This document shows positions 36,835-55,484 of a stretch of 64,000 nt of DNA, piece by piece. The DNA is from Thermodesulfovibrionales bacterium. Its GTDB lineage: Bacteria; Nitrospirota; Thermodesulfovibrionia; Thermodesulfovibrionales; Dissulfurispiraceae. The notes beneath the pieces are model-generated. The model was not told where the DNA came from. It did no database searches and saw only the letters and a list, made by a program, of their open reading frames with translations. Location of the stretch: the NCBI GenBank assembly GCA_020062545.1, contig JAGUWD010000020.1, forward strand, positions 62,001 through 126,000. Reading direction: 5' to 3'. How positions within the stretch are numbered: position 1 is the stretch's first letter; each line of letters opens with the position of its first letter. The position numbers and the translations under genes were made by a program.

Positions 36835-37722
36835 TTAAAATTTAACCATCTTGTTTATCTCTACATTAACCTTTGCAACTGTAGAAAATACCTTATGCGC
36901 CTCTTCAAGTGTGGATACAACAAGAGAAACCCTCTTTGTAACATCTGTCAATACCTGGCTCTGCTCCTCAATAGCTGATGAAAGATTATTAACAGAATCT
37001 CCGACCCTGTCGGAAAGCACCTTTGTATTTTTAAATGTCGACCTTATGGATTTTATGTCATGCTCAAATGCAATGATGATCTCTGAAATCTTATCCACCT
37101 CTCCAACTGCAGCGATAACCTTATCTTTCAAATCTTCCAGTATATTTGCAATATCTTTTGTGAGCTTTTCTGTCTTTTGCGCAAGTTTTCTTACCTCATC
37201 TGCCACAACAGCGAATCCTCTGCCTTTGTCCCCAACCCTTGCTGCCTCTATTGCAGCATTAAGCGCAAGGAGATTCGTCTGATCTGCTATGTCAGAAATG
37301 GATACGACTATATTGCCTATATTTTCTGTAGCAGCGCCTAAATTCTGGATATTATTGACAACCTCTGTAACCTTCTCCTGCTGTCTCGATATATCCTCAA
37401 CCCTTTTTGCGAGTTCCACATCCAGCGTATCGTTCTGCCTGACCATATCCTGCACCTGTGTATTAATGGACGATACATTGCCGGACATATCCCTGATAGT
37501 AGCATCTATTTCCTCTATGGCTGTGGCAACGGATGTGGTCTCGTCTTTTATCCTGCCAAAATTACTATCGATTAAATCCATGGTGTTAGTAATAGTAGAG
37601 CCTAAAAGGGTGGATTTAATAAGCCCTGTTGAAATTTTCTGTATTGCCGGCAGAAGATTATCGTGTGCTACAATTTGCTGTTTGTTCTTAAAAAGTCTCA
37701 ATGCCATTATTCCCTCCGTCAC
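36835..37722 (-). CDS. Soluble (no TM) methyl-accepting chemotaxis protein
   Basis: [54 protein letters not shown]; no hydrophobic TM segment. Confidence 0.92.
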
Positions 37723-37957: not shown

Positions 37958-38749
37958 TTAATATATCTCATTTATAATGTCCGCACCACACTTGAGTCCC
38001 GAGAACCAATCCCAGAATCTTTTCACATGCTCCTTTTTAAAAATAGCTCCATGCTGTGGAGCAATCATCTCTATATCATATTTCGATATTCTATCCACAT
38101 ACTTTCTGCACACAGAATTGGATGCCATGTATCTTTTATGGAAACCTTCCATAAGCTTCACATGGGAACCAAAGTCCCTGACAAAGGGGTATCTCTCTCC
38201 CTTCTGGAATATTGCTGCACCGAGGTCTCCTGTGAAAAGTATCTTTGACTTGGGATCATAAACATGGAAGTTGGCAACAGAGTGGAGAAAATGGGCAGGA
38301 ATCAGTTCAAGGGAATCGCCCGATGAAAGCTGAATCCTTCCGCCATTGTCTTCTACCGGAACTATTCTGGTCATGTCGAACATTCCATAATGGGGAAGGA
38401 ACCTTACCCACCATTTGGAGAGATGTATCTTTGCAGGGGTCACGCTGAGCCAGAGGGCTATTCCTGAAGAAACATCAGGGTCCTGATGGGAAAAAAATAT
38501 GTGCTGAATCCTGCTTAAATCAATATACCTCGATGTGTTTGCAACAACACGGGGAAAAACATGAATTCCGCCGGGATCAAGCAGTATGCCCGTGCCTTTA
38601 TTTTCTATAAGGTACTGGTTTACCTGAACCAGTCCTTCTTCCTCATGCTCCTCCCATCCAAGCCACACAAACCTGTGAGTTCCGTCATCATAAAGCACTT
38701 TACCCTTTACAATATCCACATCATTTCCAGTATTCGCAGCCGTTGCCAT
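37958..38749 (-). CDS. MBL-fold oxygen-binding di-iron protein (ODP/flavodiiron-like)
   Basis: NQYLIENKGTGILLDPGG, IFFSHQDPDVSSGIALWL, PAHFLHSVANFHVYDPKSKILFTGDLGAAIF, IAPQHGAIF. Confidence 0.88.
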   Translation of the reverse strand: MATAANTGNDVDIVKGKVLYDDGTHRFVWLGWEEHEEEGLVQVNQYLIENKGTGILLDPGGIHVFPRVVANTSRYIDLSRIQHIFFSHQDPDVSSGIALWLSVTPAKIHLSKWWVRFLPHYGMFDMTRIVPVEDNGGRIQLSSGDSLELIPAHFLHSVANFHVYDPKSKILFTGDLGAAIFQKGERYPFVRDFGSHVKLMEGFHKRYMASNSVCRKYVDRISKYDIEMIAPQHGAIFKKEHVKRFWDWFSGLKCGADIINEIY

Positions 38750-38758
38750 AAAAACCTC

Positions 38759-39811
38759 CTAAACCGCGTTTATAATTTCGCCTGCCATCTCTTCTATAGA
38801 TAAGACCTTATCCGCTATGCCTGCATCCACAACCGCTTTCGGCATTCCATACACAACACATGTCTCTTCGTTCTGGGCAAATATCCTTCCGCCTGTCTTC
38901 TTTAATTCAATAAGTCCCTTAAGCCCATCATTTCCCATGCCTGTAAGTATTACGCCCAGTGCCCTGCCAGGAAAAAATTCTGCCACAGAAGACATAAGGG
39001 CATCGACAGATGGGCGATAAATAAACTCCTCTTTATTCTCGGAAATGGCAATGACCGTCTCTATTCCCCTTGGTCTTTTCACCCTCATATGTCCTCTGCC
39101 AGGTGCTATATACGCAACACCATTTTTTAAAGGTTCCCCTTCCTCTGCCTCCTTCACGGTAATCTGGCTTAGCTGATTCAGCCTCTCTGCAAAAGGGCCT
39201 GTGAAGTTTGGAGGCATATGCTGGGCTATGACTATAGGCGTTGGAAAATCCTTTGGCAGTTTGGGAATTATCTCCTGAAGTGCCTTTGGCCCACCAGTAG
39301 ATGTCCCGATAGACACCAGGTTTATCCTGCGCTCTCCTGTTATCCTCACTGGCATTGATTTGGGAATTTCTATTGTCTTTGATGCTGTTACAGGCCTGAT
39401 GCGCCTTTTCACAATGCCTTTTCGGGCAATATGCTTTATTTTGTCAATCAATATCTCTCTTATCTTCACAATATTTATCGAAAGGTCGGAGAGGTTTTTG
39501 GGTATAAAGTCCACAGCGCCGAGGTCAAGGGCATCCAGTGTAACCTTTGCTCCCTCTGTGGTAATGGAGCTTACCATAATTACCGGAACGGGATTCTTCT
39601 CCATTATATGCTTCAGTGCAGCGATGCCGTCCATCCTCGGCATTTCAACGTCCATCGTCACAATGTCAGGCCTTAATTTTTCTACAAGCTCGATCCCCTC
39701 AACCCCATCCCTCGCCTTACCAATGACCTGGATTTCAGGGTCGGAAGAAAGCATGCTCGCCAAGGCGTTTCTCATAAATGCCGAATCATCAACAATTAGA
39801 ACCTTTACCAT
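38759..39811 (-). CDS. cheB: Chemotaxis protein-glutamate methylesterase CheB
   Basis: KVLIVDDSAFMRNALASML; SIGTSTGGPKALQEIIPKLP; IAQHMPPNFTGPFAERL; GMGNDGLKGL. Confidence 0.96.
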   Translation of the reverse strand: MVKVLIVDDSAFMRNALASMLSSDPEIQVIGKARDGVEGIELVEKLRPDIVTMDVEMPRMDGIAALKHIMEKNPVPVIMVSSITTEGAKVTLDALDLGAVDFIPKNLSDLSINIVKIREILIDKIKHIARKGIVKRRIRPVTASKTIEIPKSMPVRITGERRINLVSIGTSTGGPKALQEIIPKLPKDFPTPIVIAQHMPPNFTGPFAERLNQLSQITVKEAEEGEPLKNGVAYIAPGRGHMRVKRPRGIETVIAISENKEEFIYRPSVDALMSSVAEFFPGRALGVILTGMGNDGLKGLIELKKTGGRIFAQNEETCVVYGMPKAVVDAGIADKVLSIEEMAGEIINAV

Positions 39812-39825
39812 AAATCTCCAATATT

Positions 39826-39892
39826 AGCTCATGGCTCACGGCTTTAAAAATTAGCATCTATGAGCTATGAACTATCAGCTATTTTATACCTT
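39826..39892. repeat. Heptad repeat inverted pair (AGCTCAT type) between receptor and cheB
   Basis: ttagctcatggctcacggc ... catctatgagctatgaactatcagctatttta. Confidence 0.85.
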
Positions 39893-42337
39893 AAACCAGC
39901 CTGCCATTGAATTCAGTTCTATGGCGAGTTTTGAAAGGTCTCCTGCTGCACGCTTTATTTCAACCATGGAATTGCTTAACTCTCTCGTTATTCCTGCAAT
40001 GTTTTCCATATTATGGGAGACCTCCTCAGAGGCAGAAGACTGCTCCTCTGTAGCCACCGCGATCCTCTGCACCATATCCGCAACCCCTTCCACATATGAG
40101 ACGATTTCGTCTATGGACTTCAATGTTCTGTTTACATGCTCAAGCACCTTCCCTACAGACTCCCTCTCTTCCTTCATAAAGCTCACGGAATCCGTTACTT
40201 CTGTCTGCATTGTCTTGACGGTGTTTGCTATATCCTCTGTCGCGACAGTTGTCCTCTCTGCAAGCTGTCTGACATTGTCTGCCACCACTGCAAAGCCTCT
40301 GCCCTGCTCTCCTGCGCGCGCTGCTTCAATTGCTGCGTTTAAAGCAAGAAGGTTTGTCTGGTCTGCTATCTCTTTTATCAAGGTTATTATTTCGTTTATC
40401 TCCACTGATTTCTGCCCGAGGGATTCCACCTTTTCTGCGGATTCCTTGACTGTATTGGCAAATTTCTGCAACTCCTGCATTGTTACATACATTGCATCTT
40501 TGCCTTGCATTGCTACCTGTTTCATTTTCTGAGCAGCCTCCGCAGTTTGGGATGCATTTTTTGCCACATCAAGGATTGTCTGCGACATTTCTGTCATGGC
40601 TGTGGCTGATTGTTCTATCTGGCTATGCTGCTCATGCGAGCCTTTTTCAAGGGATATAGCCGTGGCTGATAATTCCTCTGAACTGCTTGCAAGGGTTCCT
40701 GTTGATGTCTTCATTTTCCCGACTATTTCTCTCAGGTTTTCTATCATTTTGCACATCGATTTGTGCACCATTCCGATTTCATCTTTTGTGTATTCTGTCC
40801 TCGCACAGGTGAGATTTCCCTGTGCTATCTGGTCGGCTCCCCATATGAGTTCATTAAGCGGTTTTGAGACGGAGCGATAAATCCATGAGCCAAAGGCAAT
40901 GCCGAATACAGTCGCACCTATTCCTATAGCTGCAATGAGTATAGTGCTGAACCGCACCATCTTATTAACCATTCCAATCGCTTTTTCCTGCTCTCCCTGT
41001 GCAGCAGTAACAGTTTCTTTGCCCTTTGCTGCCTGCTTCAGGACTATCTCCCTCAATCTCTCGGTAGCCTGCAGTGCCTTCTCCTTCATGTTGATCTGAT
41101 GGCGGATCTTTGCTATGATTCCATCCTTTGCTAACAATACACCTCTGATTGAGGTAAAAGCACCTTCTACACCTTTTAATGCCTTCATTTCTTCTTTTGC
41201 ATCGAGTTTTGTCAGGGCCCTTTCCAGACTCTTTTGCACAGAATCTATCTTTTCGTATACCTTCCTGATCTCGGTCTCTACGCCTTCGACATCCTTTGCA
41301 GTCATAAGGGTAAAGAGCCGAGTTGATAATCCCTCTATGGACAGGCCGAGAGAAACCAGCTCTGAATTGGCAGTCAGGACATTGGTTGCTACGTTCGCCT
41401 GTGTAAAAACCTTGCCCTGTTTTTCTGTCTCTATTCCGTATTTTTCACTTGCCGAGACTACTTCCTGTTCGATCGTGAGCATAACAGAAGACAGTTTCTC
41501 GCTAACATCCCTGTTTAGCGCTTCAAACTTGTTCTTTATGTCGCTATTAGCCTGACCTAAAAGAGAGGTCTGGAGTTTTACAATCTCCTCTATCTTTTCG
41601 CCTAAGAACTTTACATCTGCCATGAGATTTTTAGATTCCTTCAAATACTCATTCTGAATCGCTCTATTTATTGCTGAATTGACTTTTCCACGGCCTATTA
41701 TCAATGTCTTTTTATCCTGAGCATGCTGTATTTCGAAAATAGCAACCTGAAGGTCCTTCAATGTTGTCTTTAATACTTCTATATTTCTGAGTTTTGACGA
41801 AATGCCTTTTGTATCCTCCAGCGATGTCACAAAATTTGCCGAACGGTTGAGTTGAAGTGCTTTTATCTTAGCATCCATATCCTTCAATCTATTTGAAGCA
41901 TCCTTTAGTTTCTGTGTAATTGCCTTGTTTGCCATGCCGGCTTCTTCTTCTGCATAGAGTCTGCTCTCTGTTATTTCAAAAAGCTCTTTTGCTATACGGC
42001 TCAATTCATTGTAAGTCTCTATCTTTGCGCCTCCTGACATGGACTCCAATGCATCCTGAGTATTTTTAACCTCTGACAGAGATTTTTCGGCTTCGGTGCG
42101 ATAGGTCTTGTATTCTTCTATGCCTTTTGAGGCGCTTACCTTAACTAGATCTGCGGTAGTGCCCTGTATTGCTCTTTGAAAATCAGCTGTCCTCATCTGA
42201 AATGGTGTGCTTCGCTCCGTCAGGTAAAATAACTTGCTCTTAACAAACCCCATACCTATAATACTTGTGGCAGCAACGGCAGCAACAATCGCAATCACAA
42301 TAATCACATTCCATGTCAGTTTGGTCTTTATCGTCAT
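39884..42337 (-). CDS. Methyl-accepting chemotaxis protein, large periplasmic helical domain
   Basis: Two TM segments, [42 protein letters not shown]. Confidence 0.94.
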
Positions 42338-42432: not shown

Positions 42433-42912
42433 CTACTCTGTCGGATAACCTCTCTTTTTCCAGTCAGGCAGTCCTTCCCTGTACCAGTGAACCTTAAAGC
42501 CAAGGGAATGCAGCATTACCGCTACAGAAGGTGAACGCCAGCACTTAATGCCATTACAATAAAGGATATACTCCTTGTTCTTATCGAGTTTGTCAGCCAT
42601 AGAAGGACCCTGTTTGATTAAATCATCACAGAAAAACCACTCTGCACCGGGGATCTTTTCTGTGTCATACTGCGTCTTTAGGCGATTGTCTAAAAAGACA
42701 GCCTTCTTTGACTTCCATAGTTCGTGCGCCTTATCACCACTGATATTTGGTATTCCTTCCAGTGATGGAGGCATCTCCTTCTTTGCCTTTTCGAGTTCGT
42801 GTATCTCGTTTACCTTATTCATCACGGCATCAGGCCATGATGCAGCAAATGCAATACCAGCTGCTAAAAGTGTTACTGCTAAAAATATCCCCAACCAATT
42901 TTTCTTGTTCAT
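42433..42912 (-). CDS. Exported rhodanese-domain protein
   Basis: Signal peptide; KKAVFLDNRLKTQYDTEKIPGAEWFFCDDL...YILYCNGIKCWRSPSVAVMLHSLGF...GLPDWKKRGYP. Confidence 0.88.
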   Translation of the reverse strand: MNKKNWLGIFLAVTLLAAGIAFAASWPDAVMNKVNEIHELEKAKKEMPPSLEGIPNISGDKAHELWKSKKAVFLDNRLKTQYDTEKIPGAEWFFCDDLIKQGPSMADKLDKNKEYILYCNGIKCWRSPSVAVMLHSLGFKVHWYREGLPDWKKRGYPTE

Positions 42913-42964: not shown

Positions 42965-43726
42965 TTATGGTTTTACGTATTTCTGCCCCTCTCCTTTAAT
43001 ATAGTCTATGAGTTTCTGGACATTGGCAGACGGTTTGCCCTTGGTAACGAGGATTATGTCGCTTTTTGCCTCAGGCTGTTCAGGAACCTTGACAGTATCA
43101 TCAGCAACGGATGCGGCTGAAATACCTATTGCCTCCTGATTAGACGCCACATTTTGTCTTAAATCAGGGCCTGTAGTTGCCTCAAGGACATCTTTTATTA
43201 CAGCAGCGCCATCAAGGACTTGATTTACGAATAATGAGTTCATTCCAGGTGTAAGTTTTGCCCATACTACAATTATTGGCATGTCCTTTCCGCCTACATC
43301 TTTCCAGTTTGTTATCTTACCTGTGAATATTCCTTTTAATTGCTCTTTAGTAAGCTTCGTGACAGGATTAGCCTTATTTATCATAACCACTGCCCTGCTT
43401 TTCCCAATAACATGAACCTGCAATTCGGTCTTATTGACTTCAATCCCCTCTTTTTTCATCATGGCAATCCACTCATCCAGTGTAAGACCTGCACCGGCGG
43501 CATCTATAGCGCCTTTCAGAACATCCTGCATTGCTAATTTTGGACCCTGCTCAATAAGGGTGAATTTAATCCCTGTTGCCTTTTCAAAATGTTCTTTAAC
43601 AGGTTTCAAAATGCTGTTTGAAGGCGCCGCCCCGGCCCCCACCTTGACTTCCTGTGCAAAGGCACCGATGGACAATGCTAATACAAGAACAATTACAATT
43701 GTTAAAACCAATCCATACCTTTTCAT
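42965..43726 (-). CDS. Exported PstS-like phosphate/anion-binding protein (PBP-like)
   Basis: KVGAGAAPSNSILKPVKEHFEKATGIKFTLIEQGPKLAMQDVLKGAIDAAGAGLTLDEW...LKGIFTGKITNWKDVGGKDMPIIVV; start set at MKRYG with GGGAGGA upstream. Confidence 0.85.
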   Translation of the reverse strand: MKRYGLVLTIVIVLVLALSIGAFAQEVKVGAGAAPSNSILKPVKEHFEKATGIKFTLIEQGPKLAMQDVLKGAIDAAGAGLTLDEWIAMMKKEGIEVNKTELQVHVIGKSRAVVMINKANPVTKLTKEQLKGIFTGKITNWKDVGGKDMPIIVVWAKLTPGMNSLFVNQVLDGAAVIKDVLEATTGPDLRQNVASNQEAIGISAASVADDTVKVPEQPEAKSDIILVTKGKPSANVQKLIDYIKGEGQKYVKP

Positions 43727-43810
43727 ATCCTCCCCCCAAAATTGAGATATTACCACCAAAGGTGGACTATTTAACGGTTTGAAACGTTTAAACCGTTTGA
43801 ACCGTTAAAA

Positions 43811-44989
43811 TCAGAATCCAAATTCCTTTAAAAGATCATCAACACCTTCCTGTGAAACCTTCTCAGGCACGATAGTCTCAACCTTTTTACCTTCTTCTAT
43901 CTTTACACCAAATGTCGCAATTAATTTGACCAATTCTTCCTCTATTTCTCCGACAAGTTTAATCACCTTTTTTATTGTCTGTCCTGTAATATCCTGAAAT
44001 GACTGGGCAGTAAGTATCTCTGTCAAATCATCTTCAAGTTTATTTTTGAAGTCTTTTAAATAGCTCACAGATTCCTCTGGTTCTTTTAGGTTTCTTATAT
44101 GCGAGGCAAGGTCATCCATAGAAAGTATGTACTTTTCAACTATGCCCATTGTCTTGTTTGCTGCCTCTTCGGTCTTGTCTATAACAAATTGCAGTTTATC
44201 TATTGCACTTGGCATGTCCGTTACTGCCATATCTTTAAGTCTCGGGTCTATAGCCTCTTTGAAACTCCTTATGGCATTGTGAAGCTTCCTTGTAACCTTT
44301 CCAACCTCTTTAAAAAGATCGCTCTGGCCTTTACTCATTATTTTCTGGATGGCCTCGTCAGCCTTCTCGTAATCCTGCGCTGCTATGGCATTCATAAAAC
44401 CGACCATATCATCAAAAAGGGCATATCTTGGATCGGTAGAGCTTATTCCCCTCTTTTCAAAAAAGTCCTTTGCATCCATCACTTCTTTGACAACTATCTC
44501 TCCACCCATCCCTTCTATTTTCTTCACAACTTCAACCTTATCGCCCGCCTCCTTTACCTCAAACACCTCTTCTTCAAAGATGCTCATGTCCTCAACAGGG
44601 ATAAGCTTCTTTGCATCAAGAAGCACGACAAGTTTGTCGTCAACCTTTGCAACGCCCGATACAATATCGGAGGTATTAAAATCTGTTGGAGGCTCTATCT
44701 CCGACTCCTCTATCGTAATCACGCCGGTTATGCTGTCAACAAGAACTCCAAAGGTAATACGGCCGCTTGTAACGACTATTACCTTTTCTCCAACAGTGCC
44801 GCCGTTCAAACCGGCAAGTTTCTTAAGATCCACAACCGGTATTATTCTTCCCCTGAGATTGGCAATGCCTTCTATATAACCGGGCGCTTGCGGCAGTTTT
44901 GTCAAAGACGGCATGTTTATAATTTCCTGAACCTTTAATATTGGTATCGTGTATTCATTGTTGTTCATTGTAAAGCCTATATATTGCAT
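43811..44989 (-). CDS. CheW-CheZ fusion protein
   Basis: N-term CheW: NNNEYTIPILKVQEIINMPSLTKLPQAPGYIEGIANLRGRIIPVVDLKK; C-term CheZ: SFQDITGQTIKKVIKLV catalytic helix and C-terminal GVDDLLKEFGF. Confidence 0.9.
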   Translation of the reverse strand: MQYIGFTMNNNEYTIPILKVQEIINMPSLTKLPQAPGYIEGIANLRGRIIPVVDLKKLAGLNGGTVGEKVIVVTSGRITFGVLVDSITGVITIEESEIEPPTDFNTSDIVSGVAKVDDKLVVLLDAKKLIPVEDMSIFEEEVFEVKEAGDKVEVVKKIEGMGGEIVVKEVMDAKDFFEKRGISSTDPRYALFDDMVGFMNAIAAQDYEKADEAIQKIMSKGQSDLFKEVGKVTRKLHNAIRSFKEAIDPRLKDMAVTDMPSAIDKLQFVIDKTEEAANKTMGIVEKYILSMDDLASHIRNLKEPEESVSYLKDFKNKLEDDLTEILTAQSFQDITGQTIKKVIKLVGEIEEELVKLIATFGVKIEEGKKVETIVPEKVSQEGVDDLLKEFGF

Positions 44990-45057
44990 ATATTCCTCCT
45001 CCTTTATGTTTTATCGTGTTCGTTGAGTTTGTTGTTTTCCAATCTACTCAATAAACT

Positions 45058-46815
45058 CTATTTACCCGTTTTAAATATTCCCCTTGAAACTACTGCGAGG
45101 TCAAGGATTAAAACAACCTTTCCATCGCCTGTAATTGTTGCCCCCAGGATGCCGCACTCTTCAGATTCTATGCCGTTGATGGTCTTAATAACAATCTCTT
45201 CCTGTCCTAACAACTCATCTACGGATATGCAGAATCTCCTGTCGCCAACTGCTGCAACAAGTACATAGCTGTTATCATGGTCTATTTCAGACATCCTCCT
45301 TACACCAAGCACTTCAGACATTTCGAACAGGGGCAAAACCCTACCACGTATGGTCAATACCCTCTGGCCTGTTACATCCTTTATGTCGCTCTTTTTAACC
45401 CTGAGTGTCTCTTCTATCATGGACTGCGGTATTGCATAATACTCGCCGCCTATTCTCACCATCATTGCCTGAAGGATTGCAAGGGTTAACGGCAGGCTTA
45501 TTTTGAATGTGCTTCCAATATCCTTTTTAGTAATTACCTCAACATATCCATTCAGTTTTGCCACATTTGTCTTTACGACATCCATTCCAACACCGCGGCC
45601 GCTCAGTTCTGTGGAAACCTCCTTTGTGGAAAATCCCGGCAGGAATATAAGATTTATTGCCGCATCATCGGACATCCTCTGTACCTCTTCCTCAGTTATC
45701 AGACCTTTAGACAACGCCTTTTTCTTGACAGACTCAACATCTATGCCCTTCCCGTCATCAGATACCTCTATAACAATCATAGTGCCCTTCTGATAGGCAC
45801 TGATAATTATCCTGCCCTTCTTCGGCTTTCCTTTGGCTTGTCTTTCTTCTGGAGATTCTATGCCGTGGTCTATGGAATTTCTTATGATATGCACAAGGGG
45901 ATCGCCGATATTTTCTATGACTGTCTTATCCACCTCTGTATCTTCGCCAAATATTTCCAAATCAATGTCTTTTCCTAAATTCCTCGACATATCTCTGACC
46001 ATCCTCGGGAACTTGCCGAAGACCTTCTGGATAGGTTGCATTCTCATCTTCATTACAGCTAACTGCAAATCCGATGTAACCCTGTCGAGAAATCCCGTTG
46101 TCTCAAGAAGGCTTTCGACATGAGGGTCCCCTGAATAGCTGAGGTCAAGTTTAGAAGCAAGATTGAGGAGCCTGTTTCTCGCGAGCACGATCTCTCCTGC
46201 GAGGTCCATTACCTTATCAATCCTCGATACATCAACCCTGAGCGTAGAGACGACCTCTCGCTCCTTTGTTATCTGCTGCACCTCTTCAGCGGGTGAGGGT
46301 AAAGGTTTAGGTGAAGGTTTTGCCTTCTCTTCTATTTTTTCTTCTGCTTTTGGCTCTACTATCTCCTCTACCTCTTCCTTTACCTCTTCCTTTTCTTTAA
46401 CCTCTTCTTTTGCCTCTCCTCCTGCAACTGCCATTTCCAGAGCAGAATCCAGCCCTCTTAAAAGGTCTGATGTATCTTCCTCTATTCCATCTTTGAGTTT
46501 TATATGAAATATAAGAAGCCTTAAGGTATCCACACTCTTAAGGATTACATCCATCAACTCCCGTGAAAGGGCGATTTCGCCGTCACGGAGCCTTTTCATA
46601 ATGCTTTCTGCCCTGTGGGCAACATCCACAATCTGCTGAAAGCCCAGGAATCCTGCAGCACCCTTAAGGGTATGCATTCCCCTGAATATTTCATTGAGAA
46701 TGTCCTTGTCATACCCCTTTGTCTCCAGCTCCACAAACATGGGGTCAATTTTTTCGAGAGTTTCTTCCGCTTCTGTAACAAATTCGCTTATAATCTCGTC
46801 CATCTCGTCAGCCAT
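45058..46815 (-). CDS. cheA: Chemotaxis histidine kinase CheA
   Basis: P1 MHTLKGAAGFLGFQQIVDVAHRAESIM; HATPase HIIRNSIDHGIESPEERQAKGKP; GRGVGMDVVKTNV; CheW-like C-term; start set at MADEMDEI. Confidence 0.96.
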   Translation of the reverse strand: MADEMDEIISEFVTEAEETLEKIDPMFVELETKGYDKDILNEIFRGMHTLKGAAGFLGFQQIVDVAHRAESIMKRLRDGEIALSRELMDVILKSVDTLRLLIFHIKLKDGIEEDTSDLLRGLDSALEMAVAGGEAKEEVKEKEEVKEEVEEIVEPKAEEKIEEKAKPSPKPLPSPAEEVQQITKEREVVSTLRVDVSRIDKVMDLAGEIVLARNRLLNLASKLDLSYSGDPHVESLLETTGFLDRVTSDLQLAVMKMRMQPIQKVFGKFPRMVRDMSRNLGKDIDLEIFGEDTEVDKTVIENIGDPLVHIIRNSIDHGIESPEERQAKGKPKKGRIIISAYQKGTMIVIEVSDDGKGIDVESVKKKALSKGLITEEEVQRMSDDAAINLIFLPGFSTKEVSTELSGRGVGMDVVKTNVAKLNGYVEVITKKDIGSTFKISLPLTLAILQAMMVRIGGEYYAIPQSMIEETLRVKKSDIKDVTGQRVLTIRGRVLPLFEMSEVLGVRRMSEIDHDNSYVLVAAVGDRRFCISVDELLGQEEIVIKTINGIESEECGILGATITGDGKVVLILDLAVVSRGIFKTGK

Positions 46816-46831
46816 GTTTAGCCCCCTTTTT

Positions 46832-46895
46832 GGCTCATAGTTCATTGCTCATAGCTCATGGTTTTTACGATGAGCCATCAGCCATGAGCTAACAT
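46832..46895. repeat. Heptad repeat inverted pair (AGCTCAT type) upstream of cheA
   Basis: ggctcatagttcattgctcatagctcatgg ... gatgagccatcagccatgagctaac. Confidence 0.88.
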
Positions 46896-46901
46896 GCTAT
46901 A

Positions 46902-47315
46902 TCATCCCGCTTTTAGGGATGTTTTCTTATCTGCTATCTTTTCAAGTTTCTCTTTCAATACCTCGGCTGTAAATGGTTTCACAATATAATTATCAACCCC
47001 TGCCTTGATTGCCTCGATGACCTTTTCCTTTTCGGCCTCTGCAGTTACCATAAGAAATGGTACATTCTTTAACGGTTCAGGCTCTTGCCTGACATTCCTT
47101 AGGAGGTCAATACCTTCCATGTTGGGCATGTTCCAGTCAGATACAACAAGCCCGTAATTTCCGCTCTTGAGCTTGTTAAGTGCTTGAACACCATCCTCAG
47201 CCTCATCTATATTTTCAAAACCTATCTGTTTTAAAAGGTTTTTAACTATCCTTCTCATAGTAGGAAAGTCGTCAACCACAAGCACCTTGATGCCAAAATT
47301 AAACATTACCATCAC
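46902..47315 (-). CDS. cheY: Chemotaxis response regulator CheY
   Basis: [37 protein letters not shown]...[18 protein letters not shown]...[31 protein letters not shown]. Confidence 0.95.
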
Positions 47316-47691
47316 CTCCTGTGCTAAACATCTTTTTAAGTATCTTTTTTATGCTTTCATTTATCTGATCCGCATTGGTGGGTTTGACCAAATAGTCGTC
47401 GGCGCCGGCTTCAAATGCCCTTTTCTTCTCATCCTCGTCAGCCTCTGTAGTAACCATAACAATAGGAATGCTGCTTAAAGTGGGGTCTGACTTTAAGTTT
47501 TTTGTAAACTCTATTCCGTCCATATAAGGCATGTTCATATCTGTAAGGATGAAGTTGATATTCTCTGTTCCTACCTTTTCCATGGCATCCAGCCCGTTTT
47601 CTGCAGTTATTACCTCGTATCCCTTGCCTTTGAGGTACAAACTTAACAATTTCCTTGTGGTTTTGTCATCATCAACAACCAATATCTTCAT
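47299..47691 (-). CDS. CheY-like response regulator
   Basis: [32 protein letters not shown]...[15 protein letters not shown]...GADDYLVKP. Confidence 0.94.
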
Positions 47692-47777: not shown

Positions 47778-48608
47778 TTACACTTTCTGATAGACAATTA
47801 CCTTATTAATAACAATAGGTCTGAAAGCCCTCGTCACATTGTGAAGACTTTCTGACGTGCCCACAAACAGATAACCGTTTGGCCTCAATGCGTCGTACAG
47901 GTTGGCAACCGCCTTCTGTTTTGCCCTGTCATCGAAATATATGAGGACATTCCTGCAGAATATGACATCAACACCTCGCACCGCTTTTACGTCTCTGTCC
48001 TCTATAAGGTTTATCTTCATAAATTTGGTTATGGATTTCACGCTATTTGATATAGTGTACTGCTGGTTGGCCCCATTGAAATACTTCTTTAAATACACTT
48101 CCGGAACATTCCTGATCGCATACGACCCATAAACGCCGGACTTTGCAGAGTTTAAAACAGACTCGCTGATGTCAGAGGCGTATATCTCTTTTTTAAGGGC
48201 ACCCGCCTCTAATTTCTCCATGAGTATCATTGCAATGGTATAGGGCTCTTCTCCTGTCGAACATGCTGCAGACCATATCTTTATGTCCTTACGTCCGGTT
48301 TTGGCATTTTCGGCTACGATACGGTTAAAAAGCTCTCCTGCAAAAACATCGAACTGCTGCGGTTCCCTGAAAAAAAATGTCTCATTGGTTGTCACCAGAT
48401 TGAACATTATATTGAGTTCGTTTTTATCGGAACCGTATTTCAGGATATAGAGGTAGTCTTCGTATCCCTTGAGATTCTTCTCCTGCACCCTTCTTCCAAG
48501 CCTGTTTTCGAGAAAATATTTTTTGTTGTCGGGGATGAAAATGCCGCTCCTCTCGTATATAAAATCCCTGAGTTGTTTGAAAACATCGTCTGTCATTAAT
48601 AGACTCAT
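47778..48608 (-). CDS. cheR: Chemotaxis protein methyltransferase CheR
   Basis: KIWSAACSTGEEPYTIAMIL; DVIFCRNVLIYFDDRAKQKAVANLYDALRPNGYLFVGTSESLH. Confidence 0.95.
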   Translation of the reverse strand: MSLLMTDDVFKQLRDFIYERSGIFIPDNKKYFLENRLGRRVQEKNLKGYEDYLYILKYGSDKNELNIMFNLVTTNETFFFREPQQFDVFAGELFNRIVAENAKTGRKDIKIWSAACSTGEEPYTIAMILMEKLEAGALKKEIYASDISESVLNSAKSGVYGSYAIRNVPEVYLKKYFNGANQQYTISNSVKSITKFMKINLIEDRDVKAVRGVDVIFCRNVLIYFDDRAKQKAVANLYDALRPNGYLFVGTSESLHNVTRAFRPIVINKVIVYQKV

Positions 48609-50470
48609 AGAGAGCTTAAGGCCTCCTTTATCTTGTCTCTCACATCAGGATTGGGATGCTCTTCGTGAACAACCAATGCCTCGTATGCCTCCCTTCCGCC
48701 TATTTCACTGATTGCATCGATGGCAGACATGACAACAGGGATAAATTCATCGTGGAGCATTGTGCCTATCATGCTTATGGCCTTTCCCTTATCGCACGAG
48801 AAGGCTATTGCCTTAATGGTATAAAATCGCACCCACGGGTCGTCATCCTGCAGGGCATTGAACAATTCGGCAGAGCAATACCGCGCCTCGCCGAGGCCTA
48901 CCACAGCAGCCTTCCTTATATCCGGATCGCTGTCTCCCAAAAACCAAATAAGTCTGGATACCGCCTTATCAGTACCAATGCGTCCAAGCCCGTATATTGC
49001 AGCTATCTTCACTTTCTTATTCGGGTCATCTGCCAATCTTAAAAGAATATCCACATCGGATACAGTCTTCGCTATTATCTCTCGGACATTGTCGCGGTAC
49101 TTTGGCATATCAGACAAAAAGGCATCCGCATCTATCTTTATAAGTGATTCAACAATCTTTTCGATAACATCATAATACTTCTCCACCTCTAATAGATCCA
49201 TCAAAGCTTTAAATGCGTCCTTTGCCTGAATATTGCCGAGGGCCTCTATGGCAGAGCGTCTGACATGGGCATCCACATCCTTCAGGGATACTTCGAGGAG
49301 GTGTCCTGTGGATCTCATCTCTCCTATTTCACCGAGGGCCTCGGCAGATGCCCTTCTTAAGTCCCTCCGCATGTCATCGAGATAATCGACCAGCTTTGAG
49401 ACAGCCTTTTTACTTCTAATAGTGCCCAGTATTTCTATGGCAAAAGACTTGCCCCTGTATTTCATGCCAGGTGATTCGAGCAGATTCAATAATTCATCCT
49501 CCGAGTCCATAGAACTGATAGCATCCCTCAATAATACAATCCTCTCTTCGCTTTCAGGCAACGATGGGTCTAAAGAACCTGCAATATCTACCAGCACAGG
49601 CACTGCCTCACGGCAGTTTAAGGAAACAATACCCTTCAGGGCTATCTCCTTTTCCTCCCAGTCGCCATCCTTGAGCATTTTTATAAGATGTCCCGACAGG
49701 TCGGCCATTTCGGGGGTAATCCCTATCTGGATAAGGCTCTTTATAACCGCACTCCCTTCATCAACAGACGCCTTTGGCAGATATGCAATTAAAGCATCTA
49801 CTGCCTTTTCAGAGCCTATCTTTCCCAGTGTTTCAATTGCAGCAAAACAGACTGCTTCAGACGAACTACCAAGGAGTGAGCCTATATCCTCCACAGCCTC
49901 TACAGCTTTGAGTTCTCCGAGTGCGTCGAGTGCAGAAAAACAGACCCACTCTTCATCCTTAAGCGCCTTTATCAATTCCGGAATAGAATCCCTGTATCCC
50001 AGCAAACCGAGACTCTTTGCAGCAGCAGCCCTTACATTTGCGTTAGGGTCTTTGAGGAGCGGCATAATCATTGACGGCTCGACTCCTTTCTTTATGTCTC
50101 CCATAAGGTCGATGGCAAACTTCCTGATATCATCGTCCTTATCCTTTAAGAGTGGATAGAGGAGCGGCACAGCTACTCCGTTAAGTGCAGTGAGAATGAT
50201 TAAAGCTGTATTTCTAAGATAGGAATCTTCCCTTAACAGCGGCAACACCATATAACCAACAACTTCGCCTGAATAGCTGTCTCTCGTCCCTATGGCAATA
50301 AGGGAGCGCATTGAGGCGTCCTGAACCCCTGCATTCTCATCGCTCAGCGCCTTAATAAGCGGATATACCGCCCTCTCGTCCCCTTCCGATAGATCTTCGG
50401 CGACCCTCCTTCTAACAGAAGGGTCTTTATCACCAAGCTTCTGGATCAGTTTTTTAATGTTTTTGATCAT
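48605..50470 (-). CDS. HEAT-repeat protein linked to CheR
   Basis: Many ~31-aa repeats such as DPNANVRAAAAKSLGLLGYRDSIPELIKALKDEEWVCFSALDALGEL; ATGA overlap with cheR. Confidence 0.9.
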   Translation of the reverse strand: MIKNIKKLIQKLGDKDPSVRRRVAEDLSEGDERAVYPLIKALSDENAGVQDASMRSLIAIGTRDSYSGEVVGYMVLPLLREDSYLRNTALIILTALNGVAVPLLYPLLKDKDDDIRKFAIDLMGDIKKGVEPSMIMPLLKDPNANVRAAAAKSLGLLGYRDSIPELIKALKDEEWVCFSALDALGELKAVEAVEDIGSLLGSSSEAVCFAAIETLGKIGSEKAVDALIAYLPKASVDEGSAVIKSLIQIGITPEMADLSGHLIKMLKDGDWEEKEIALKGIVSLNCREAVPVLVDIAGSLDPSLPESEERIVLLRDAISSMDSEDELLNLLESPGMKYRGKSFAIEILGTIRSKKAVSKLVDYLDDMRRDLRRASAEALGEIGEMRSTGHLLEVSLKDVDAHVRRSAIEALGNIQAKDAFKALMDLLEVEKYYDVIEKIVESLIKIDADAFLSDMPKYRDNVREIIAKTVSDVDILLRLADDPNKKVKIAAIYGLGRIGTDKAVSRLIWFLGDSDPDIRKAAVVGLGEARYCSAELFNALQDDDPWVRFYTIKAIAFSCDKGKAISMIGTMLHDEFIPVVMSAIDAISEIGGREAYEALVVHEEHPNPDVRDKIKEALSSL

Positions 50471-50716: not shown

Positions 50717-51463
50717 CTAACACCCATTCTTAAAATGTTCCATCCTGTTTTTCAGTTTAACGAGGACCTTACCGTGCAGTTGACAGACCCTCGACTCGCT
50801 AATATCCAGAACCCTGCCTATTTCCTTCATTGTAAGTTCTTCAAAATAATAAAGTGTTATTACAAGCCTCTCTTTCTCGGGAAGTTCGTCTATGGCACTA
50901 CCGAGAGCAGACCTCAACTCCTTTAGATTTAACTCATACAGCATGTCCTTCTCATCCTCTTTTGATATACATTCGAGAATATCGAGGGATTCGCCATCCT
51001 TGCTTACTCCTAAGTCCTCCAGACTTATCATGTTCATGGTATTGGCTATGGATAAGGTCTTGTAGAGTTCGTCGATGGTTATGTTCAGCTTTTCCGCCAC
51101 CTCTTCATCCGTGGCAATCCGGTTAAAGCTCTTTTCGAGTTCGGAATAGGCTTTTCTAACCTCTTCCAGCTTCTTCCGTGCATCTTTCGATGCCCACTGC
51201 ATGGAGCGGATCTCATCGATTATGGCGCCCCTTATTCTAAAGTCTGCAAAGGTGCTGAGCGTTGCATTCATGGAGGGGTCATATCTTTCTATTGCCTCTA
51301 AAAGTCCTACTATTCCTGCTGATACTAAATCTTCGATGCTTAATTCTGAAGGAAGACAAAAGGCATATTTACTTGCATAATATTTTACCCTCGGCAAAAA
51401 CTGTTCGACTATCTTCTCTTTTTGTTTTTCGGATACTTTCTGTTTTTTTGATAGTTTTCCCAT
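50717..51463 (-). CDS. fliA: RNA polymerase sigma-28 factor FliA
   Basis: VKYYASKYAFCLPSELSIEDLVSAGIVGLLEAIERYDPSMNATLSTFADFRIRGAIIDEIRSMQW; LPEKERLVITLYYFEELTMKEIGRVLDISESRVCQLHGK. Confidence 0.95.
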   Translation of the reverse strand: MGKLSKKQKVSEKQKEKIVEQFLPRVKYYASKYAFCLPSELSIEDLVSAGIVGLLEAIERYDPSMNATLSTFADFRIRGAIIDEIRSMQWASKDARKKLEEVRKAYSELEKSFNRIATDEEVAEKLNITIDELYKTLSIANTMNMISLEDLGVSKDGESLDILECISKEDEKDMLYELNLKELRSALGSAIDELPEKERLVITLYYFEELTMKEIGRVLDISESRVCQLHGKVLVKLKNRMEHFKNGC

Positions 51464-51484: not shown

Positions 51485-52306
51485 TTACCCAACCCTCAGT
51501 GCCTTTTTTAAGAAGAACTGTATATTCCCCTTTACCTCATTGAGTGGATTATCAAGCACCTTCTTTCCTATGGCCGCCAGCCTTTTTGCGAAGTTGCTGT
51601 TAGGATACATTGCTATAAAGCCCTTCTGGGCAATTATCGCATCCTTAACATGCTGATCAAAAGGCAGATATCCGAGATAATCTATCGAGAGGTTTAGAAA
51701 CTTATCAGCAACGATTGCCAGTTTCCTGAAGGTATCGAATGCCTCCTTCTCGGAGCGGGCTGTGTTGACGAGGATCCTGAAATGCCTTTCCTGAAAATCC
51801 CTCGACAAAACCTTTATCAGGGCATATGCATCGGCTATGGATGTTGGCTCTGGAGTTACAACCACTATCGTTTCCTGTGCTGCACTGCAGAAAAATAATA
51901 CATTGTCCGATATGCCTGCACCGGTATCGATCAGGAATACATCAAATGCCATATCAAACTCATCCAGCTCCGAAACAAGCTTTAATCTATGGCTGTCTGT
52001 CAGCTTTGTAAGCTCTCTGATGCCAGAGCTTGCCGGAAGTATCATCATCCCGAGAGGCCCTGTAACGATAATATCCTTTATCCTCTTTTCTCCCAGGAGC
52101 ACGTGCTTGAGATTGTATTTGGGAGCTATGCCGAATAACACATCTATGTTGCTCAGTCCTAAATCGGCATCAAGTACGAGCACCTTCTTATTGAGGCTTG
52201 CGTAAAACAAGGCAAGGTTGGCAACGAAATTTGTTTTTCCAACACCGCCCTTTCCGCTTGAGACAGCAATTATCCGCGGCCCGCTGATATTATTATTAAC
52301 GTTCAT
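51485..52306 (-). CDS. flhG: MinD-like flagellar number regulator FlhG/FleN
   Basis: IAVSSGKGGVGKTNFVANLALFYASLNKKVLVLDADLGLSNIDVLFGI. Confidence 0.92.
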   Translation of the reverse strand: MNVNNNISGPRIIAVSSGKGGVGKTNFVANLALFYASLNKKVLVLDADLGLSNIDVLFGIAPKYNLKHVLLGEKRIKDIIVTGPLGMMILPASSGIRELTKLTDSHRLKLVSELDEFDMAFDVFLIDTGAGISDNVLFFCSAAQETIVVVTPEPTSIADAYALIKVLSRDFQERHFRILVNTARSEKEAFDTFRKLAIVADKFLNLSIDYLGYLPFDQHVKDAIIAQKGFIAMYPNSNFAKRLAAIGKKVLDNPLNEVKGNIQFFLKKALRVG

Positions 52307-53352
52307 TAAACACCTCCGACAATTAGACCTGCAAGAAATTCAGGAGTAGGAATCCTTATGTCATCAGGGACATCCGGACCTGTAGCAACAAGGGATAATG
52401 GACGACTGGTAAGGAGTGAAAGATTATAGAGGCTTCCATACTGTGACGCCATATCCAGCTTTGTAAAACCTATAGAATCGATCATATCGGAATTGCACTT
52501 CTGCCATGCCTTTAGCGCTGCCTGCGTATCCATGGAGGCATCCATAAGAAAGCATTTCTTTACAGGGAACCCCGAAGGAAATATCTCTCTTATATCCTCC
52601 AGTATTTCCTTATACTCATATCCAGGCGTATCAATGAGGATAGGACCTTTGCCCATCTCACGGTATATGATCTTCGGCAGATCACTCACATTTCTTATAA
52701 TCCTCAACGGGCACTTGATCTGTTTTGAAAGCTCCTTCATATATGCCATGGAGCCTATCCTGTTGTCATCGAGGGAGATGAGATTTACCGGTTTCTTTTT
52801 CGATGCAAGCAGGTGAGCCACCTTTGATATAGTCGTGGTTTTGCCGACACCGGGAGGGCCAAGGAATATAAACCCGCTCTCCTCTGCAGGCAGCATACCC
52901 TGTATCTTTAAATCCTTCTTTATAACGCCCTTGAGACTGTCCAGGGAATCCTGCGCCCTTTCGAGCAGGATTATGGCAAACTGTGTATCAACGCCTTGTT
53001 TCACAAGGAGATTGAACAATCCTTTTTTATCCTTTCCGATCCTGAGGGCAGGCACTATTGGCCGCAGTGTTTCTTTTAAGAATCCCATCTCATCCCTTAA
53101 TCCCCTTATCTCTTTCAGTATCTCCTCGACATCTGAAAACCCCGCCTTTGCAGCAGGATTAATATTCACTGCAACATCCTCCATAGAATCGTCTATGGCA
53201 GCAGTGACTTCAACCGCGTCTTTGTTGATGATCCCGAAGGGACCTGTCTTTACAGACTTGCTCGAAAGTATTATTGCGTCTGGTCCGAGCTCCTTCTTCA
53301 CCGTCTCAAGGGCTTCTTTGAAACTACGACCAACGAATTTCTTGATTTTCAT
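52306..53352 (-). CDS. flhF: Flagellar biosynthesis GTPase FlhF
   Basis: MKIKKFVGRSFKEALETVKKELGPDAIILSSKSV; GPPGVGKTTTISKVAH; ILIDTPG. Confidence 0.94.
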   Translation of the reverse strand: MKIKKFVGRSFKEALETVKKELGPDAIILSSKSVKTGPFGIINKDAVEVTAAIDDSMEDVAVNINPAAKAGFSDVEEILKEIRGLRDEMGFLKETLRPIVPALRIGKDKKGLFNLLVKQGVDTQFAIILLERAQDSLDSLKGVIKKDLKIQGMLPAEESGFIFLGPPGVGKTTTISKVAHLLASKKKPVNLISLDDNRIGSMAYMKELSKQIKCPLRIIRNVSDLPKIIYREMGKGPILIDTPGYEYKEILEDIREIFPSGFPVKKCFLMDASMDTQAALKAWQKCNSDMIDSIGFTKLDMASQYGSLYNLSLLTSRPLSLVATGPDVPDDIRIPTPEFLAGLIVGGV

Positions 53353-53438: not shown

Positions 53439-55484
53439 CTATTCTATCTTTACCGTCCCTATCGAATAAACCTTTGTGCCCGGTGCAATTTCACCGTGGG
53501 ATACCACCATGATGCTTCCGGAAACCCGCTCTGTCAGCTTTTTCACAAACCTCCTTATTGCCGGAGAACATAAAAGCACGGGCTGGTATCCCTTCTGCAT
53601 GCCTTCCTCAAAGCTCTTTCGTATGGCCTCAACAACCTTCTCGGTTGTTGCTGGATCAAGGGCGAGATACGAACCCTGCGGCGTTGTTTGCACCGCCTCA
53701 ATGATCGATCTCTCAACCCTCGGGTCAATTAATATTACAGACACGGAACCATCTGGATTCTGCAACTGCCTTGTTATGCCCCGTGCCAATGCCTGCCTCA
53801 CATATTCCGTGAGGATATCCGTATCTTTGGTAACATTCGCATAATCCGACAACGCCTCGAGGATTGTCTGCAGATCCCTTATGCAGACCCTTTCCCTGAG
53901 AAGGTTCTGAAGCACCTTCTGAACAGCACCCAGATTCAAAAGCCCGGGGATAAGGTCTTCAACAACCTTCGGATGCGTTTTTGAAAGATTATCCAGCAGT
54001 TTCTGGACATCCTGCTTGCCGAGGAGTTCATGGGCATAGTTTTTTATCACCTCTGTAAGATGGGTCGTGATAACAGAAGGGACGTCTACAACTGTGTAGC
54101 CGGCAAGCTGCGCCCTTTCCACATCCCTTTCATCTATCCAGAGTGCAGGCAATCCGAATGTAGGGTCTTTGGCCGGTATTCCCTCTATCCCGACCTTCTC
54201 TGTTGCAGGCGAGATAGCGAGATATTTATTGATCATTACCTCCGCAGATGCAACCTCAACGCCTTTTATAAGAAGGGAATACTGCGTTGGCTTTAAAGAC
54301 AGATTATCCTTTATATGTACAGGCGGGACGATAAACCCCATGTCTGTTACCATCTGCTTTCTGATCGCCTTGATCCTCGCCAAAAGCGGGCCTCCTTCTT
54401 CCACAAGTGGGATAAGACCGTAACCTATTTCGAGGGCGAGGGGATCAAGTGGCAGTAGTGACTCAAGGGTCTCCAAAGGCTTCTCTTCTTCTGCAGGGGC
54501 CGGTACGGCCTCTTGTTCCCTTTTAGCTGACTTTCTTAAAAAATATGCGCCTGTCCCCGTAATTGTAGCAAGCATCAGGAACGGGACGTGTGGTAATCCC
54601 GGAATAAGACCGAAAAATGCCAGTATGCCCGCAGCCGTTCCCAATGCCTTTGGGTTTACCAGTAACTGTTTCACCACTTCTGCACCAAGATTGGCTTCTG
54701 TGGCGGCCCGGCTCACTATAATGCCTGCTGCTGTGGATGTAATGAGGGCGGGTATCTGGGCAACAAGTCCGTCGCCGATTGTGAGGATTGTGTAAGTCTT
54801 TGCAGCATCGGCAATGGGCATTCCTTTTTGCAAAACACCGATGAGGAAACCGCCTATTATGTTAATGACCATTATGATTATGGCTGCAATGGCATCACCC
54901 CTGACAAATTTGCTCGCGCCGTCCATGGCTCCGTAGAAATCAGCCTCCCTGCTTATCTCCTGCCTCCGCCTCCTTGCCTCTGTCTCGTCGATAAGACCTG
55001 CATTCAGATCGGCATCGATGCTCATCTGTTTGCCAGGCATTGCATCGAGGGTAAACCTTGCAGAGACCTCGGCGATCCTTCCTGCACCCTTTGTTATAAC
55101 CACAAAATTTATAATGATCAGGATAAAAAATATGACAAAGCCGACCACATAGTTGCCGCCGACAACAAATTCTCCAAAGGACTTTATAACCCTTCCTGCT
55201 GCCTCTGTGCCTATATCCCCCCTCATCAGTATCAGCCTTGTGGCAGCTATGTTCAGGGAGAGTCTGAGCAGCGTTGATATGAGAAGGATCGACGGAAATA
55301 CCGAAAAGTCAAGGGGCTTATAACTGTACGCAGAAACAAGAAGAACCACAACCGACAGGGTGATGCTGAAAGAAAGCGCCAGGTCCAACAATATTGGCGG
55401 CATGGGTATTATCATCAAACCGAGGATTAAGACAATACCAACTGCCAGCACAAGATCACTTTGTCTCAATAATCTATCGAGCAT
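53439..55484 (-). CDS. flhA: Flagellar export protein FlhA
   Basis: MPPILLDLALSFSITLSVVVLLVSAYSYKPLDFSVFPSILLISTLLRLSLNIAATRLIL; SARFTLDAMPGKQMSIDADLNAGLIDETEARRRR. Confidence 0.97.
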   Translation of the reverse strand: MLDRLLRQSDLVLAVGIVLILGLMIIPMPPILLDLALSFSITLSVVVLLVSAYSYKPLDFSVFPSILLISTLLRLSLNIAATRLILMRGDIGTEAAGRVIKSFGEFVVGGNYVVGFVIFFILIIINFVVITKGAGRIAEVSARFTLDAMPGKQMSIDADLNAGLIDETEARRRRQEISREADFYGAMDGASKFVRGDAIAAIIIMVINIIGGFLIGVLQKGMPIADAAKTYTILTIGDGLVAQIPALITSTAAGIIVSRAATEANLGAEVVKQLLVNPKALGTAAGILAFFGLIPGLPHVPFLMLATITGTGAYFLRKSAKREQEAVPAPAEEEKPLETLESLLPLDPLALEIGYGLIPLVEEGGPLLARIKAIRKQMVTDMGFIVPPVHIKDNLSLKPTQYSLLIKGVEVASAEVMINKYLAISPATEKVGIEGIPAKDPTFGLPALWIDERDVERAQLAGYTVVDVPSVITTHLTEVIKNYAHELLGKQDVQKLLDNLSKTHPKVVEDLIPGLLNLGAVQKVLQNLLRERVCIRDLQTILEALSDYANVTKDTDILTEYVRQALARGITRQLQNPDGSVSVILIDPRVERSIIEAVQTTPQGSYLALDPATTEKVVEAIRKSFEEGMQKGYQPVLLCSPAIRRFVKKLTERVSGSIMVVSHGEIAPGTKVYSIGTVKIE

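Follow-up and report, generated by a model that had tools for sequence, protein, structure and literature searches.

A gene in the window (the whole stretch of 64,000 nucleotides analysed, from a Thermodesulfovibrionales bacterium) joins the sensory-array adaptor CheW and the phosphatase CheZ, which ends the flagellar "turn" signal, in a single chain of 392 aa. The fusion is the standard CheZ of the whole class to which the window belongs, not a single-strain oddity, and it tracks flagella. Its product is probably a bifunctional adaptor-phosphatase of flagellar chemotaxis, with CheW docking in the array and CheZ dephosphorylating CheY-P beside CheA.

Fusion gene and domain architecture

The open reading frame runs on the minus strand from an ATG at 44989 to a stop codon at 43811 as a single uninterrupted frame; the plus strand of the region, read in frame, contains stops. 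Pfam places a CheW domain (PF01584) at residues 2–130 (4.5e-36; 123.9 bits, cut-off 23.5) and a CheZ domain (PF04344) in two stretches, residues 224–303 and the C-terminal part (2.4e-34; 119.5 bits, cut-off 30.7), which bears out the N-terminal CheW and C-terminal CheZ of the original prediction. A local CheZ profile stretches the CheZ domain to residues 184–392. Compared by sequence with solved structures, the CheW half matched 2qdl (3e-23) and E. coli CheW (3e-20), and the CheZ half matched E. coli CheZ (1kmi_Z, E=5e-9). The two predicted signatures, FQDITGQ and VDDLLKEFGF, are present at residues 331–337 and 383–392. Features of the gene are listed in window positions, with the evidence in parentheses.

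44995–45003, minus strand: Shine-Dalgarno-like AGGAGGAGG, just 5' of the fusion ATG (sequence)
43811–44989, minus strand: cheW-cheZ fusion gene, 392 aa (single open reading frame; Pfam CheW and CheZ; kept across the class)
44600–44986, minus strand: CheW domain, residues 2–130 (Pfam PF01584; invariant residues; model resembling CheW structures)
44441–44599, minus strand: linker, residues 131–183, with a conserved GGE..VKE segment inside (AlphaFold2 pLDDT; alignment)
43814–44440, minus strand: CheZ domain, residues 184–392 (Pfam PF04344; local profile; 1kmi_Z; E. coli CheZ alignment)
43979–43999, minus strand: catalytic motif FQDITGQ, residues 331–337 (D333/Q337 invariance; E. coli alignment)
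43814–43843, minus strand: C-terminal CheY-binding tail VDDLLKEFGF, residues 383–392 (E. coli-like motif; conserved)

A missed stop or frameshift separating the domains, against which the original prediction had cautioned, is ruled out, and an assembly artefact is rejected with it, because dozens of independent assemblies, single-contig genomes among them (G014, G052, G075, G079, G166, and G312), preserve the same uninterrupted frame. The stop codon of the fusion is closely followed by an imperfect palindrome of 40 bp, in which repeats recur at a 9-bp spacing (TTTAACGGTTTGAAACGT...; window 43770–43809).

Conserved residues and predicted structure

An alignment was made of 52 fused homologues, which represent dozens of genera. 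Within the FQDxTGQ motif, Q332, D333, G336, and Q337 are the same in all of them, and D333 and Q337 align with D143 and Q147 of E. coli CheZ; the tail, counterpart of VDDLLDSLGF in E. coli, is conserved. Residues E22, G41, and R46 of the CheW half, equivalent to E38, G57, and R62 of E. coli CheW, are also invariant in the 52 homologues, and the position equivalent to V36 is nearly invariant in the window's class. The E38–R62 salt bridge of E. coli CheW gives the sites for receptor and kinase their geometry and is needed for a correct scaffold (PMC3828127). Judged by their residues, both halves look functional.

In the alignment, the fused CheZ lacks approximately 21 residues of the hairpin tip seen in E. 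coli CheZ, among them the aromatic stretch (residues 97/98) with which E. coli CheZ contacts CheA-short (PMC7750401). The tip is shorter in stand-alone CheZ of Nitrospirota too, and its loss is therefore not counted as support specific to the fusion.

An AlphaFold2 monomer model built from the 52 homologues (mean pLDDT 69, pTM 0.36) predicts a CheW beta fold, a linker, and long helices at residues 249–299 and 305–360. The linker is mostly of low confidence (pLDDT <50 at residues 139–173) and varies in length among homologues. In Foldseek searches with the model, the first half matched CheW and CheA structures (e.g., 6s1k_C, 2ch4_Y); CheZ (1KMI) was not among the matches listed, though the sequence finds 1KMI. 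By analogy with E. coli CheZ, the CheZ half is presumably dimeric.

Distribution of the fusion

When GTDB contigs were scanned for patterns specific to the window, a search limited in reach to close relatives, 13 relatives came up (12 records of Nitrospirae, Nitrospira, or Nitrospiraceae; one uncultured bacterium). In 396 phylum genomes searched for CheZ, open reading frames of two size types were found, approximately 395–480 aa and 200–280 aa; reading of the loci identified the long CheZ frames in the window's class as CheW-CheZ fusions. When a profile of the fused protein was run on the 163 class genomes with a completeness of at least 90%, the full-length fusion was found in 83 (in one of these, genome G336, the match ends at profile position 339), with a clear gap between fused matches (E ≤1e-118) and the next matches, which are to CheW only (E >1e-50). 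FlhA is present in 80 of the 83 genomes with the fusion versus 11 of the 80 without (Fisher p 4e-30, a value that overstates independence because related genomes are included in the counts); the 11 class genomes with FlhA and without the fusion count against the proposed role in flagellar chemotaxis. In one genome of family f1, a further contig encodes CheW-CheZ again at full length (G158:C21:26905-28080). No plasmid or phage record searched covers 80% of the fusion protein.

Outside the class, fusions were found in f22, f28, and one f25 genome. The f25 fusion, on a 10.8-kb contig, nests inside the class and may be due to transfer or misbinning. Relatives in f29 have a separate CheZ of approximately 212–220 aa, encoded between cheY and cheA. 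In f30, the N-terminus of CheZ is CheW-like but strongly diverged; of two tested, only that of G010 passes the Pfam cut-off. In the f30 loci L128, L155, L168, and L175–L177, the N-terminal domain measures 110–170 aa and looks like a CheW that has diverged greatly; a second, short CheZ is additionally present in some f30 genomes.

Origin of the fusion

After two long-branch rows were dropped, the fused CheW domains of the class formed one clade (99/94), distinct from the stand-alone CheW with which they coexist in these genomes. A single CheW origin was rejected in the first clade test, with the long-branch rows included (p 0.005), and was not rejected without them (p 0.28); the initial rejection was thus driven by these rows. 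The CheZ tree needs three to four changes and contains long branches. Within the clade of fused CheW domains, a 160-aa stand-alone CheW of G152 (L129) forms a long branch; the domain may have been set free from the fusion, or its placement may be a tree artefact. A broader proposal, that the phosphatase is controlled by receptors and dependent on array state, and that it was joined to CheW more than once in Nitrospirota (window class, f22, f28, and in degenerate form f30) under strong selection to integrate the phosphatase into the array, seems rather unlikely to hold.

Other chemotaxis adaptors and phosphatases in the genome

The window contains no CheW or CheZ gene besides the fusion, except for the CheW-like end of CheA, as originally predicted. 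For the genome as a whole this does not hold as to CheW: contig C3 encodes a stand-alone CheW immediately 5' of a receptor gene, a second che cluster on C8 contains a further one, and a CheV gene is present on C32. No further CheZ above the Pfam cut-off was found in the genome. A candidate second CheZ at C8:87140 was rejected (9.2e-5, below cut-off; no catalytic motif; best relative of the open reading frame a chemoreceptor).

Most genomes with the fusion also carry a stand-alone CheW. Among 12 genomes with both, mean identity between genomes is 67.6% for stand-alone versus 53.1% for fused CheW, the former being higher in 66 of 66 pairs (pairs share genomes and are not independent); fused and stand-alone CheW of one genome are approximately 36% identical. 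Because the fused CheW is a paralogue in its own right, with faster evolution, it usually works beside a normal CheW. The idea of the fusion as sole CheW was rejected for this genome and is possible only in G209 among the genomes looked at. There, CheW domains were found only in CheA and the fusion, so that the fusion should serve as array adaptor; G209 is a 96% complete draft, in which a CheW may have been missed. In most cases, then, the fusion supplements other CheW adaptors, and in some it may be the sole one.

Gene neighbourhood

The fusion gene belongs to a block conserved across the class with local variation: flhA-flhF-flhG-fliA-HEAT-cheR-cheY2-cheY-cheA-cheWZ-(receptors)-cheB. In the window its members are as follows; the names FliA, FlhG, and FlhF are inferred from context.

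53439–55484, minus strand: flhA (Pfam FHIPEP, 3.4e-280)
52306–53352, minus strand: flhF-type GTPase (Pfam SRP54)
51485–52306, minus strand: flhG-type ATPase (Pfam AAA_31/ParA)
50717–51463, minus strand: fliA-type sigma factor (Pfam Sigma70 regions 2, 3, and 4)
48605–50470, minus strand: HEAT-repeat protein adjoining cheR (Pfam HEAT_2; gene order)
47778–48608, minus strand: cheR methyltransferase (Pfam CheR)
47299–47691, minus strand: cheY2, second single-domain receiver protein (Pfam Response_reg)
46902–47315, minus strand: cheY, E. coli-like (NCBIfam NF007901, 1.1e-52; E. coli CheY alignment)
45058–46845, minus strand: cheA, with Hpt, dimerisation, ATPase, and CheW-like domains (Pfam)
39884–42337, minus strand: chemoreceptor (Pfam MCPsignal, HAMP)
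38759–39811, minus strand: cheB methylesterase (Pfam CheB and receiver)

The product of the E. coli-like cheY is the likely substrate of the CheZ half. A P2 domain was not recognised in CheA by Pfam. Throughout the class, and likewise in f28, the flagellar che block retains the HEAT-repeat protein beside cheR. Between the fusion and the large receptor are encoded a PstS-like substrate-binding protein (42965–43759, minus strand) and a rhodanese-domain protein (42433–42912, minus strand); the former recurs in relatives of family f1 and in one f9 genome, the latter in fewer f1 relatives. A protein of the ODP family (di-iron, oxygen-binding type; 37958–38749, minus strand) adjoins cheB, with an MCP-type gene beside it (36835–37722, minus strand; 295 aa, no HAMP match); the two are possibly an oxygen-sensing receptor pair.

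Proposed mechanism and alternatives

By docking on the tips of chemoreceptors and/or the regulatory domain of CheA, the N-terminal CheW would bring the protein into the sensory array, where the C-terminal CheZ, presumably as a dimer, would dephosphorylate CheY-P next to CheA, its kinase. The fusion would thereby take over from the CheA-short route of enteric CheZ, and in most genomes it would work beside the separate, better conserved CheW in the manner of CheV, with a phosphatase as its module. It is read as a dedicated, CheV-like phosphatase tether because stand-alone CheWs and CheV exist and the stand-alone CheW is the better conserved; for the latter reason the fused CheW could also be a weak or specialised binder. 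For the fusion we infer dimer formation, array localisation, phosphatase activity, and signalling effect.

Fusion might instead couple only stoichiometry or expression, fixing the CheW:CheZ ratio and leaving the location of the phosphatase nearly irrelevant. The gene directly follows cheA in one block, and in modelling of E. coli, phosphatase localisation alone need not alter the response (PMC2673030). A co-transcribed gene pair would serve equally, however, and as stand-alone CheW occurs in most genomes, total CheW is not tied to CheZ; we consider this explanation unlikely.

CheV is thought to give fast signal termination or extra adaptation. The fusion, which parallels CheV (also present in this genome) in combining CheW with a regulatory module, could serve the same ends if its CheW half read the state of the array and switched CheZ. 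A conserved segment in the linker fits such gating, as does work cited in PMC2673030, according to which the CheAs-CheZ interaction raises CheZ activity in E. coli; but the protein has no phosphorylation site or other obvious switch, and the linker is of low confidence and variable length, so that gating by receptors appears doubtful. It is very improbable that the CheW half is degenerating, with no array binding, and that the protein is an ordinary cytoplasmic CheZ: the fused CheW does evolve faster (53% vs. 68% mean identity) and the N-terminal domain in f30 is nearly unrecognisable as CheW, but in the window's class the equivalents of E38, G57, and R62 are invariant and that of V36 nearly so, and the modelled domain closely resembles CheW structures. 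An array-docked adaptor-phosphatase is the reading that we prefer.

Comparison with known systems

To our knowledge, most work on the importance of array localisation for the CheY phosphatase concerns E. coli, in which CheZ is held at the array only partly, through CheA-short. A covalent link fixed across a class offers a natural construct to test the effect of tethering the phosphatase to the array, and the fusion extends the few known CheW-carried modules (CheV, CheA) by a phosphatase. The gene may be annotated as plain CheW or plain CheZ in public genomes, in which case counts of both would mislead. Wide prior description, which would have weakened the original prediction, was sought in open PubMed Central papers, and no description of a CheW-CheZ fusion was found in this open-access literature.

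E. coli CheZ (PF04344, 1KMI) resembles the fused CheZ in its catalytic Asp and Gln, long hairpin helices, and C-terminal CheY-binding tail; here, it is joined to CheW, and approximately 21 tip residues, including the CheA-short contact, are missing. E. coli CheW (PF01584) is matched by a full domain with the same predicted fold and invariant E38, G57, and R62 equivalents; unlike stand-alone CheW, the domain carries a phosphatase, and its clade is separate from that of the stand-alone CheW in these genomes. CheV likewise has the CheW adaptor and a signalling module on one chain and occurs beside a normal CheW; its module is a receiver, whereas that of the fusion is the CheZ phosphatase, with no receiver domain by Pfam. 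CheA-short in E. coli and ChePep in Helicobacter bring CheZ to a defined cellular site (PMC7750401), which agrees with the recruitment of enteric CheZ through CheA-short assumed in the original prediction; there, the phosphatase is recruited by binding of a partner protein, here by covalent fusion. The nearest described analogues are the CheA-CheC/CheX fusions known in Leptospirae (PMC10542144), in which a CheY phosphatase is also physically joined to a core protein of the array; their phosphatase fold is unrelated, and the partner is the kinase instead of the adaptor.
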